A stretch of DNA of 64,000 bases from Pseudomonas nunensis. Lineage in GTDB: Bacteria > Pseudomonadota > Gammaproteobacteria > Pseudomonadales > Pseudomonadaceae. The translations under genes and the position numbers were made by a program. The stretch is from assembly GCF_024296925.1 (NCBI RefSeq), contig NZ_CP101125.1, positions 1,304,501 through 1,368,500 on the forward strand, written 5' to 3'. Shown here one piece after another: positions 12,952 through 23,726 of this stretch. The notes beneath the pieces were generated by a model. It saw only the letters and a list, made by a program, of their open reading frames with translations, searched no databases and was not told where the DNA came from. Position 1 is the stretch's first letter; every line of letters starts with the position of its first letter.

Positions 12952-14568
12952 TCAGGTGATGGGCATTGCCGCCGGTCTCGTTGAATCTGGCCGCTTGAGG
13001 CCCGAGGCCGCGAGCAACTCCCGCGTATACGGATGCTGCGGCGCCGAAAAAATCTCCCGCGATGACCCTTGCTCCACCACCTTGCCATCCTTGATCACGA
13101 TCAAGTCATGGGCCAGCGCGTGCACCACTGCCAGGTCATGGCTGATAAACAAATACGTCAACCCATGGCGTATCTGCAATTCCCTGAGCAAGGCCACCAC
13201 CTGCTTTTGCACGGTGCGATCCAGCGCCGAGGTCGGTTCATCCAGCAGGATCAGCGCCGGTTCCAGCACCAGCGCCCGGGCGATGGAGATGCGTTGGCGC
13301 TGGCCGCCAGAGAATTCATGGGGATAGCGATGACGGCTTTGCGGATCGAGGCCGACTTCTTTCAGTACGCGTATCACCGCCGCCTCACGCTCCGCCGGCG
13401 TGCCGATGCCGTGGGTCAGCAAGCCTTCGGCGATGATCTGCTCCACCGACATCCTCGGGCTCAGACTGCCGAACGGGTCCTGAAACACCACCTGCATCTG
13501 CCGCCGCAATGGCCGCATCAAGCGCTGATTGAGAATGCTCAATTCCTTGTTGCCAAAGCGGATGCCGCCCTCGGATTCCACCAGCCGCAAAATCGCTTGG
13601 CCGAGGGTCGATTTGCCCGAACCGGACTCACCCACAATGCCCAGCGTCTTGCCGCGATGCAGGCTCAAACTGACCCCGTCCACGGCTTTGATGTAATCCT
13701 GCGTGCGGCTGAACAGCGCTTTGGGTAACGCGAACCAGACCTTGAGGTTGTCCACTTCCAGCAGGTTATGGTTGTACTCGCTGGGCACCGGCGCGCCGGT
13801 CGGCTCAGCTTCGATCAACAAGCGGCTGTAGGGATGCTGCGGGGCCCGGAACAACGTCTCGCAATCGGCCTGCTCGACGATTTCGCCCTCGCGCATCACG
13901 CACACCCGCTGGGCGATCCGTCGCACCAGATTCAGGTCATGGCTGATCAGCAATAGCGACATGCCCAGGCGCTGCTGCAACTCGATCAGCAGTTCCAGAA
14001 TTTTCTGCTGCACCGTCACGTCCAGCGCGGTGGTGGGTTCGTCGGCGATCAACAATTCCGGTTCGTTGGCCAGGGCCATGGCGATCATCACTCGCTGGCG
14101 CTGGCCGCCGGACAACTGATGCGGATACGCCTTGAGCCGTTTGTGCGGCTCACGAATGCCCACCAGTTCCAGCAGCTCCAAAGTCCGTGCTTTGGCGGCG
14201 CGATCCTTCAAACCTTTGTGGATTTCCAGCACTTCGCTGACTTGTTTCTCGACGGTGTGCAGCGGGTTCAGCGAGGTCATCGGCTCCTGGAAAATCATCG
14301 CGATCCGGTTGCCGCGCAAACCACGCAATCGGGCTTCGCTGGCGTGCACCAGATCCACGCCGTTGTAACAAATACTGCCCGAGGTCGAGACGGATTTACC
14401 CGGCAGCAGCCGCAGGATCGAGTGCGCCGTTACCGACTTGCCCGAGCCCGACTCACCCACCAGTGCCAGGCACTCGCCGCGACGGATATCCAGGTCCAGC
14501 CCATGCACCACTTCCTGGCCACCGAAGGCGACGCGCAGGTTACGAATTTCAATCAGGTTGTCGTTCAT
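12952..14568 (-). CDS. yejF: Peptide ABC transporter, double ATPase subunit YejF
   Basis: 538 residues from the ATG at 14568 (agctgac precedes it). Two complete ABC domains are fused: Walker A GESGSGKS in each half (about residues 38 and 321), signatures LSGGQRQRVMIA and FSGGQRQRISIA, and Walker B LLIADEPTTALD and LILLDEPTSALD. Each half ends in an oligopeptide-transporter C-terminal extension (QHPYSRLLIEAEP, QHPYTRELLAAS). This layout is YejF/GsiA type, powering both permease subunits. The start lies 13 bp past the yejE stop, so it is the last gene of the yejABEF operon. Confidence 0.93.
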   Translation of the reverse strand: MNDNLIEIRNLRVAFGGQEVVHGLDLDIRRGECLALVGESGSGKSVTAHSILRLLPGKSVSTSGSICYNGVDLVHASEARLRGLRGNRIAMIFQEPMTSLNPLHTVEKQVSEVLEIHKGLKDRAAKARTLELLELVGIREPHKRLKAYPHQLSGGQRQRVMIAMALANEPELLIADEPTTALDVTVQQKILELLIELQQRLGMSLLLISHDLNLVRRIAQRVCVMREGEIVEQADCETLFRAPQHPYSRLLIEAEPTGAPVPSEYNHNLLEVDNLKVWFALPKALFSRTQDYIKAVDGVSLSLHRGKTLGIVGESGSGKSTLGQAILRLVESEGGIRFGNKELSILNQRLMRPLRRQMQVVFQDPFGSLSPRMSVEQIIAEGLLTHGIGTPAEREAAVIRVLKEVGLDPQSRHRYPHEFSGGQRQRISIARALVLEPALILLDEPTSALDRTVQKQVVALLRELQIRHGLTYLFISHDLAVVHALAHDLIVIKDGKVVEQGSSREIFSAPQHPYTRELLAASGLKRPDSTRPAAMPIT

Positions 14569-14581
14569 GTCAGCTCCGGGA

Positions 14582-15604
14582 TCAAGATCGTGGATCAAAC
14601 GCATCGCGGCAGGCCTCACCGATAAACACCAGCAACGAAAGAATCAGCGCCAGGGCAAAGAACGCCGTCAGCCCCAGCCAGGGTGCTTGCAGGTTGCGCT
14701 TGGCCTGGCCGATCAACTCGCCCAGCGACGCCGTGCCGGCGGGCATGCCGAAGCCGAGAAAATCCAGAGCGGTGAGGGTGGCGATGGCGCCGGTCAAAAT
14801 GAACGGCAGGTAGGTCAGGGTCGATGTCATTGCGTTCGGCAGGATATGCCGACACATCAGCTCGCTGTCGGTCAGACCCAGGGCTCGCGCGGCTTTCACA
14901 TACTCCAGGCTGCGGCCGCGCAGGAACTCGGCGCGCACCACGTCCACCAGTGCCAGCCAGGAGAACAGCGCCATAATCCCCAATAACCACCAGAAACTCG
15001 GCGAGACGAAGCCCGACAAAATGATCAGCAGATAAAGCACCGGCAGCCCTGACCAGATCTCCAACAGTCGCTGGCCGATCAGATCCACCCAACCGCCGTA
15101 ATACCCCTGCAAGGCCCCGGCGACGATGCCCACCACCGCGCTGATCGCGGTCAGGACCAAGGCAAACAGGATCGAGATACGCGTGCCGAAAATCACCCGC
15201 GCCAACACGTCCCGGGCCTGGTCATCGGTGCCCAGCCAATTGCTGGCTGACGGCGGACTGGGGGCCGGTTCTGTCAGGTCATAGTTGACCGTGTCGTAGC
15301 TGAACGGGATCGGTGGAAACAGCATCCAGCCACCCTGGCCTTCGATCAGGTTGTGCACGTAGGCACTGGCGTAATCCGGCTGGAACGGCAATTCGCCGCC
15401 GAAGGTGATTTCGTCGTAGTCCTCAATGATCGGGAAGTACCAGGCGCCGTGGTAATGCACGATCAACGGCTTGTCGTTGGCGATCAGTTCGCCGCCCAGG
15501 CACAACAGGCACAGGCCGATGAAGATCCATAATGACCAGCGTCCGCGACGGTTGGCCTTGAAGTGCGCGATGCGCCGTTTGCCCAATGGCGACAGTGTGA
15601 ACAT
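14582..15604 (-). CDS. yejE: Peptide ABC transporter permease YejE
   Basis: 340 residues. N-terminal membrane helix (about 23-42), a periplasmic segment (45-120), then five helices with the binding-protein-dependent permease motif EYVKAARALGLTDSELMCRHILPNA (about 240-264) that docks on the ATPase. The large periplasmic insert after the first helix is characteristic of YejE. Its ATG overlaps the yejB stop (ATGA at 15601-15604), indicating translational coupling. It pairs with YejB to form the inner-membrane channel. Confidence 0.92.
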   Translation of the reverse strand: MFTLSPLGKRRIAHFKANRRGRWSLWIFIGLCLLCLGGELIANDKPLIVHYHGAWYFPIIEDYDEITFGGELPFQPDYASAYVHNLIEGQGGWMLFPPIPFSYDTVNYDLTEPAPSPPSASNWLGTDDQARDVLARVIFGTRISILFALVLTAISAVVGIVAGALQGYYGGWVDLIGQRLLEIWSGLPVLYLLIILSGFVSPSFWWLLGIMALFSWLALVDVVRAEFLRGRSLEYVKAARALGLTDSELMCRHILPNAMTSTLTYLPFILTGAIATLTALDFLGFGMPAGTASLGELIGQAKRNLQAPWLGLTAFFALALILSLLVFIGEACRDAFDPRS

Positions 15605-22857: not shown

Positions 22858-22907
22858 GGCTACACCTCGCTTGCATTAATCGGTTAGGAGTTCAGTTCGT
22901 TGCGCTG

Positions 22908-23726
22908 TTACTGCGGCAATTTGAAGTCGATGGTTTGGGTGGCGAAGCCGTCGATCGGGGTGTCGCCGCGTTTGGCCGGAATAAATTTCCAGGCCTTCAC
23001 CGCCGCGACTGCCGCATCGTCTAGTTGCGGCTTGCCGCTGGATTTGGTCACCGTCACTGCCCCGGCGCGACCGTTGGCCAGCACCTGAATGCGCAGCACC
23101 ACAGTGCCTTCCCAACTGCGACGCAAGGCCAGGGACGGGTATTCCGGTGGCGGGTTACCAAGGCTGGCCAGCCCGGAAACGGCCGCCGATTCTTTCACCG
23201 GGCCAGGCGCTGCGGCCGGCGCCGGTGGCGCACTTGGCGTCGATGGCGCGGCGGGTGCTGCCGGTTGTGCGGGGGCGGGCGGGGCTTTGGGCGGCTCGAC
23301 CTTTTTCACCGGTTTAGGTTTTTCCACCGGTTTCGGTTTTTCGATCGGCTTGGGTTTCTCAACCGGTTTGGGGGGCGGCTTGACCGCGTCCTCATCCTCC
23401 ACCGGCTGCTCGGGTTCCGGCGGCGGAGGCGGGGGCGGCGGTGGTTCCGGGGTGGGAGGCGCAGGTGGCGTCGGGCTGGTCAGCTCGACAGTCATTTCCG
23501 GAATCTCTGGCGGAGTCGGCAGTGGTTCGGCCTTGGCCTGCTGGAAAAACCACCAGGCACCGCCGTGTATCAGCGCCGACACCGCGACCAGCAACAGCAC
23601 CTGTTGCTTGTTCAACCCACCGGGTTTCGAGGTGTTGCTTTTATAAGGACGACCGCTCGATACCGGCGGGATCGGATCATCCCGTAACGGCCCCGGCAGG
23701 GTCTTGTGCTTTACCGCATCGTTCAT
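22908..23726 (-). CDS. tonB: Energy transducer TonB
   Basis: 272 residues from the ATG at 23726, with cgagggagcttta just upstream; a start at 23774 would add 16 residues without a ribosome site. A cytoplasmic N-terminus of about 45 residues precedes a membrane helix (VLLLVAVSALIHGGAWWFF). A Pro-rich periplasmic spacer follows, with PPPPPPPPEPEQ and repeated KP(V/I)EKPKP units. The C-terminal receptor-binding domain contains YPSLALRRSWEGTVVLRIQV and ends in FATQTIDFKLPQ. The long cytoplasmic N-terminus is common in Pseudomonas TonB proteins. First gene of tonB-exbB-exbD; probably dedicated to the adjacent receptor (inference). Confidence 0.92.
   Translation of the reverse strand: MNDAVKHKTLPGPLRDDPIPPVSSGRPYKSNTSKPGGLNKQQVLLLVAVSALIHGGAWWFFQQAKAEPLPTPPEIPEMTVELTSPTPPAPPTPEPPPPPPPPPEPEQPVEDEDAVKPPPKPVEKPKPIEKPKPVEKPKPVKKVEPPKAPPAPAQPAAPAAPSTPSAPPAPAAAPGPVKESAAVSGLASLGNPPPEYPSLALRRSWEGTVVLRIQVLANGRAGAVTVTKSSGKPQLDDAAVAAVKAWKFIPAKRGDTPIDGFATQTIDFKLPQ

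Follow-up and report, generated by a model that had tools for sequence, protein, structure and literature searches.

Is the gene run tonB-exbB-exbD-receptor-yejABEF of Pseudomonas nunensis a single import line from the cell surface to the cytoplasm, and what would such a line carry? The eight adjacent genes lie on the minus strand at positions 12952–23726 of the window, by which we mean the whole 64,000-nucleotide stretch analyzed here (assembly GCF_024296925.1, contig NZ_CP101125.1, positions 1,304,501 to 1,368,500). The initial annotation had proposed a dedicated route for a peptide-like or nucleotide-peptide molecule. A single import line was the best reading because of the linkage evidence given below, and the block is probably one dedicated importer for a peptide-type ligand, with a receptor gene that has its own structured mRNA leader.

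Conservation and composition of the block

A profile of 20 relatives, with one genome per species scanned, gave at least 80 loci, the best-scoring share of a longer list. A second sample comprised 119 Pseudomonas genomes, that of P. nunensis included; the two are not independent, because some genomes are common to both. Besides the window, 38 loci were of the same type (type A: L007–L039, L045, L047, L052, L053, and plasmid L001), one of which, L034, carries the label gamma proteobacterium L18. Their order was tonB-exbB-exbD-receptor-yejABEF, with all eight genes in 34 of the 38; the remaining blocks (L028, L029, L035, and L036) were incomplete since the contig stops within them. In ten loci of a sister type (type B: L040–L044, L046, L048, L050, L051, and L061), a 63–66% receptor and yejABEF come after sigma and FecR genes, present in all ten (Pfam checked on one each), and after a second receptor gene, present in nine (in pieces in L050); no tonB, exbB, or exbD match was found in any of the ten. 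A gene of an Xre/MbcA/ParS-type family was seen in between in six of them (Pfam on one).

Among the 119 genomes, the receptor was detected at E ≤ 1e-150 in 26, P. nunensis included. All 21 type-A receptors besides that of P. nunensis had a yejA 126–237 bp downstream and an exbB 595–685 bp upstream, and all 14 type-B receptors had a yejA 58–285 bp downstream. ExbB matches (E ≤ 1e-95; at least 84%) occurred in 22 genomes, exactly those with a type-A receptor. In both the receptor tree and that of YejA, type A was a single clade (39/39 each). The linkage across species is a direct result: the order of the whole block was conserved in 21 further genomes, and its occurrence in this strain only was rejected. 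Judged from gene order, the arrangement is not a product of chance, because it recurs in every one of these 21 type-A genomes. Receptor and YejA distances were also correlated within type A (0.785, reached by 0 of 1000 permutations), a figure set aside as linkage evidence since shared descent is reflected in it as well. One type-A receptor gene (G098:C1:4181787-4184494) was in two frames, either broken or a sequencing error, with leader, exbB, and yejA retained.

Where both flanks were called, in 29 type-A loci, the genes directly flanking the block formed 14 different pairs around a constant block order, and no gene beyond the eight was common to all 14. One type-A block sits on a P. aeruginosa megaplasmid. 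Four loci (L001, L034, L038, and L047) have a TldD/PmbA-type peptidase pair 5' of tonB, checked with Pfam for L001 and L047; a fused ABC transporter gene stands there in L001, L031, and L038, and in L001 the peptidase pair and fused transporter region spans 7396–12085. The peptidase pair is a hint at a peptide cargo that would need special proteolysis. A second, distant receptor gene (L038:13057-15756; 31% to the window's) lies between receptor and yejA in L038.

Gene identities were observed directly: all eight annotated genes were present, with open reading frames and the expected Pfam domains. The proline-rich product of tonB (22908–23726; TonB_C domain PF03544, 71 bits) is the block's own energy transducer, and the gene stands 5' of exbB in type-A relatives too. 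It is followed by genes for an ExbB-type proton channel subunit (22153–22857; MotA_ExbB, PF01618) and an ExbD-type subunit (21752–22153; PF02472, 107.3 bits). ExbB fell between two types, with 171.8 bits to the TolQ model (cut-off 221) and 137.1 bits to the ExbB model (cut-off 206.2), and for both subunits the TolQ/TolR models of NCBIfam outscored the ExbB/ExbD models, all under cut-off. The receptor gene (18815–21544) encodes a TonB-dependent outer-membrane protein of 909 amino acids and VTGSAIRR type (PF07715, 87 bits; PF00593, 153.6 bits), and yejA (16673–18544) a periplasmic oligopeptide-type binding protein (SBP_bac_5). The permeases YejB (15604–16671; NF011712, 518 bits, cut-off 445) and YejE (14582–15604; NF011596, 474.6 bits, cut-off 439) both had BPD_transp_1 domains and exceeded their cut-offs. 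The double ATPase gene yejF (12952–14568; two ABC_tran stretches) has a possible alternative in-frame GTG start at 14619; its product was under the equivalog cut-off of NF011713 (738.6 vs 834 bits), yet this was its top-scoring model. The exbD–receptor and receptor–yejA gaps measured 207 and 270 bp, the same as annotated, and the other junctions 50, -1, 1, -1, and 13 bp. About 1.25 kb 5' of tonB (23727–24978) had no called gene, and an inverted repeat was seen there by eye near 24820–24970.

Two long gaps of different kinds

The two long gaps differ in kind, the 207 bp being a conserved structured leader and the 270 bp a spacer that bears a repetitive extragenic palindromic (REP) element. The exbD–receptor gap was conserved with no coding signature in 14 close relatives, and was recognizable in the wider type-A loci. 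The leader, of ~120 nt (21571–21691, minus strand), was described by a covariance model, R1, with helices P2, P3, P4, and P5 (110.3 bits). Directly 3' of exbD is a G+C-rich hairpin (21711–21748, minus strand), for which compensatory changes were seen by eye, uncounted, in the 14 close relatives. Covariation in the leader was observed directly. In an unfitted alignment of 29 sequences (A5) with a hand-drawn structure, 85.8% of cells were paired and 57 were double-changed, vs 16.0 ± 4.2 in shuffles and 3–26 in slid versions. The model-fitted alignment had 78 double-changed cells, vs 25.9 ± 5.3 in shuffles and 7–31 in slid versions, with double changes in 11 of 24 pairs, a number equalled by 1 of 500 shuffles.

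R1 matched 38 of the 39 type-A loci (L030 missing) and none of 48 other sources. Nine of the 38 (L001, L008, L011, L013, L015, L023, L029, L039, and L045) were outside the model, and all of these but L001 (E 2.6e-8) were closely related to its members. Strong matches (E ≤ 1.2e-20) were found once each in 22 of the 119 genomes, these being the 22 type-A genomes, and in the 21 genomes measured, the receptor match followed at a distance of 23–32 bp; six weak matches elsewhere (E 0.003–0.006) were taken as chance. Rfam gave no gathering match in the whole window, and on 21400–21900 only SNORD95 (E 2.8) at 21753–21775, outside the leader. By its comparative signal, the leader is a conserved structured RNA element outside the listed RNA families, new here.

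An explanation that we consider doubtful takes the 207 bp for a control region acting at the DNA level, or for a site of mRNA processing, and not for a regulatory RNA. It would agree with the fold energies: the whole-leader fold of the window was no better than shuffles (z 0.23), and against simple shuffles P2–P3 was modest (mean z -1.8, 34 sequences) and P4 weak (mean z -0.9, 30 sequences). Also counting against a structured leader, the aligned subgroups do not have helix P4 in the same place, which leaves 72–75% of its cells paired, and the leader's one line of support is covariation, a statistic that can come out above shuffles for sequences that are related but have no structure. The double-changed cells, however, were far above shuffles and slid controls in both alignments, and no sigma-70-like site was found in the gap.

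Because the receptor gene has this structured leader of its own, receptor output would probably be set post-transcriptionally through it, apart from the energizer. The leader is probably a cis-element private to the type-A receptor and not a general riboswitch, as far as its distribution indicates. RsmA/CsrA, a regulator that recognizes GGA motifs, may be a candidate for its control. A regulon-wide element was rejected on the single copy of the pattern in the P. nunensis genome and the single strong match per type-A genome. It is rather improbable that the leader represents a new ligand- or protein-sensing mRNA class, possibly with a pseudoknot, that makes the receptor respond to the imported peptide; if so, a single gene island would combine capture, energization, and passage of both membranes with a sensor of its own. 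The candidate pseudoknot (TCCC/GGGGA) paired in 126 of 148 cells (85%), vs 76% and 70% in versions slid by -1 and -2, and sequestration of the Shine–Dalgarno sequence was confined to the folds of certain close relatives. An N-terminal extension of the receptor from TTG 21706 was discarded as non-coding, with indels and no third-position bias in the region.

Compared with 270 bp here, the receptor–yejA gap spanned 118–228 bp among the 13 nearest relatives; over the full set of 33 other type-A loci measured, the range was 6–242 bp, with its low end hinging on start calls. Much of the extra length is due to a REP-type inverted repeat of 94 nt (18655–18748, minus strand) with 46-nt arms that are 91% complementary; the genome has 1783 copies of its 23-nt end at ≤2 mismatches. 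It is a dispersed element outside the conserved block, and might have an effect on the local transcript.

Receptor class, YejA, and related sets

The annotation had set the receptor apart, as VTGSxIRR class, from the siderophore-class receptor beside it, and this was borne out: the VTGSAIRR motif was found, and against the siderophore-receptor model TIGR01783 (cut-off 223.5) the neighbor at 7645–9858 scored 364 bits and the window receptor 90.5 bits. A siderophore reading was rejected on this failure, and the receptor was under the cut-off of all 21 NCBIfam models matched. Neither did it appear to be a TonB-dependent transducer, with no STN domain match (PF07660) in Pfam, and with sigma and FecR genes in the type-B loci, not in the window block. 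AlphaFold2 models of the receptor had mean pLDDT values of 68.6 and 79.2, the latter, from 79 sequences, being a plug-and-barrel, and Foldseek matched them to TonB-dependent receptors at large, siderophore receptors leading; the predicted fold neither favors nor excludes a peptide ligand. A Fur-box scan of the block's three gaps gave nothing above shuffles, in a crude test whose control, upstream of the siderophore receptor, was merely at its own shuffle 95% level.

The genome is a single contig of 7.33 Mb, in which the window receptor is the sole full-length copy. YejA had three close relatives there, one in a receptor-less yejABEF copy (L002:10838-16357; 63%) and two in a set with two solute-binding proteins (L003; 41–50%). 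L003 is followed by an enoyl-ACP-reductase gene and preceded by a transglycosylase-LysM gene. It looks like the canonical Npp locus, which in P. aeruginosa is followed by fabI and preceded by an mltD-like gene. No receptor, TonB, or ExbB/D match was found in the 20 kb fetched around L002 or L003. The block itself did not pass as an orthologue of NppA1A2BCD, having a single binding protein, and the Npp-like context belongs to L003. A Yej set is present in the block, as annotated, but it is not the genome's sole Yej system, since L002 and L003 exist. YejA was matched at E ≤ 1e-200 in 96 of the 119 genomes, with the bulk of the list at 59–66%, where the receptor-less copy and type B also fall; going by these matches, a YejA of the receptor-less copy's range is widespread in Pseudomonas.

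The top PDB matches of YejA were E. coli YejA chains (381–384 bits). In excerpts of PMC10924461, from which the ligand-contact residues were also taken, E. coli YejA is described as having a very large cavity that holds an 11-residue peptide. The window YejA was identical at 2 of 13 contact positions (Y136 and R465), in an alignment that may be locally wrong. A distinct contact pattern was seen for type A, for type B, for the receptor-less copy, and for each of the two Npp-like proteins; position 456, for example, was Asn in 39/39 type-A rows and Arg in 10 type-B rows (one partial). Differing between the Yej sets, these patterns suggest that the three sets of the genome have different ligands. 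What survives of the earlier inference is the single import line with a peptide-type cargo as likeliest, on the linkage; the nucleotide-peptide ligand does not, as with 2/13 contacts identical it is not to be transferred from the E. coli or P. aeruginosa Yej systems.

Outside Pseudomonas, 33 loci were compared (L049, L054–L060, and L062–L086). A YejB/YejE-like permease lay within 10 kb of the receptor in 11 of them, and ExbB/ExbD in the fetched flank of six. In Salinicola (L054), a binding protein-permease-permease-ATPase set and an M3 oligopeptidase gene are followed by TonB-ExbB-ExbD-receptor, and in Rivibacter and Pelomonas KK5 such a set stands immediately 5' of the receptor. An Acinetobacter record listed as a plasmid (L098, 4.09 Mb) has receptor-TonB-ExbB-ExbD-ExbD, with a divergent permease-permease-ATPase set ~6.6 kb from the receptor genes. 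The association of receptor and peptide ABC importer seems to be of more than one origin, because the ABC parts differ (25–34% permease identity).

Cargo, rival explanations, and meaning

As one import line, the block would work as follows. The VTGSAIRR-type receptor would bind a ligand from outside the cell, most likely a modified peptide or an oligopeptide that porins could not admit because of its size, and the co-encoded TonB-ExbB-ExbD complex would draw it into the periplasm; YejA would capture it and YejBEF would pump it into the cytoplasm, to be used or processed there. In this course we infer that all parts share a single cargo, that it is a peptide, and that it travels inward, and likewise what the leader does. 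A peptide cargo is likeliest, with a metallated peptide as the main rival.

Several observations weigh against this reading. The type-B sister loci, all ten, carry sigma and FecR genes, a regulation common for iron carriers; YejA scored 367.5 bits against MbnE, nearly level with E. coli YejA; the top Foldseek ranks were PfeA, PirA, FepA, and Cir (16–17% identity), from a library rich in siderophore receptors; and few E. coli contact residues are kept. Outside Pseudomonas, the fetched flank lacked a permease of this kind in 22 of the 33 loci, and the 11 that had one are not independent, being mostly Oxalobacteraceae. The rough permease background, from seven related permeases (the window's included) in the 7.33 Mb of the P. 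nunensis genome, is ~2% per 22-kb stretch, which is not a fair background.

The first three of these points favor a methanobactin-like cargo, a chalkophore or a peptide siderophore loaded with metal, in which the peptide is merely the carrier, an explanation that we regard as unlikely. It also has a precedent in MbnT, which is TonB-dependent, and MbnE, which binds Cu-methanobactin (excerpts of PMC7558416, where inner-membrane passage is given as unknown). Like that pair, the block has a TonB-dependent receptor and a YejA-related binding protein, and the Mbn ligand is a modified peptide; unlike it, the block includes its own TonB-ExbB-ExbD and YejBEF. With siderophore receptors (TIGR01783; PfeA and PirA) the window receptor shares plug, barrel, and nearest solved folds, but it is under the model cut-off and is linked to a peptide-type ABC importer. 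Against a metal cargo, moreover, the gaps had no Fur-box-like site above shuffles, in a weak test with a weak control, and the peptidase genes near some relatives hint at processing of the peptide itself. The least probable of the explanations weighed is that the block takes muropeptides back up once they have been released from the cell, as a surface-to-cytoplasm form of YejBEF-YepA, the Agrobacterium muropeptide transporter (PMC9790009, main text). That system likewise combines a Yej permease and a binding protein, but the binding protein is a different one, and TonB is nowhere in the main text of PMC9790009, whereas a TonB part is in the block here. Since no ninth gene is common to the 14 flank pairs, the block is not accompanied by a cell-wall enzyme.

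It is very unlikely that receptor and ABC importer are mere neighbors with different cargoes. The two long gaps, the receptor's own leader, and the receptor-less yejABEF in the same genome would fit such an arrangement; yet all 35 receptors in the 119 genomes adjoin a yejA, the order is constant over the 14 flank pairs, and in other families receptors of this clade lie near different ABC importers of peptide type.

NppA1A2BCD of P. aeruginosa serves the uptake of peptidyl-nucleoside antibiotics, and YejABEF of E. coli that of microcin C. Both resemble the block in their YejA-type binding protein, YejB and YejE permeases, and double ATPase, within one ABC family; the block differs from Npp in its single binding protein and from E. 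coli YejA in its contact positions. Neither is known to have receptor or TonB genes linked to it. Among the literature matches listed, there was no paper or experiment on the linked block; subscription papers were mostly outside the scope, and absence from print is not claimed.

The block is a gene-linked candidate for the outer-membrane route left unknown in the E. coli YejA structure paper. With receptor and energizer genes beside the Yej genes, the question of this route becomes open to single-gene deletions, and the leader is a second, independent handle on regulation. Such a route could admit large peptide antibiotics.

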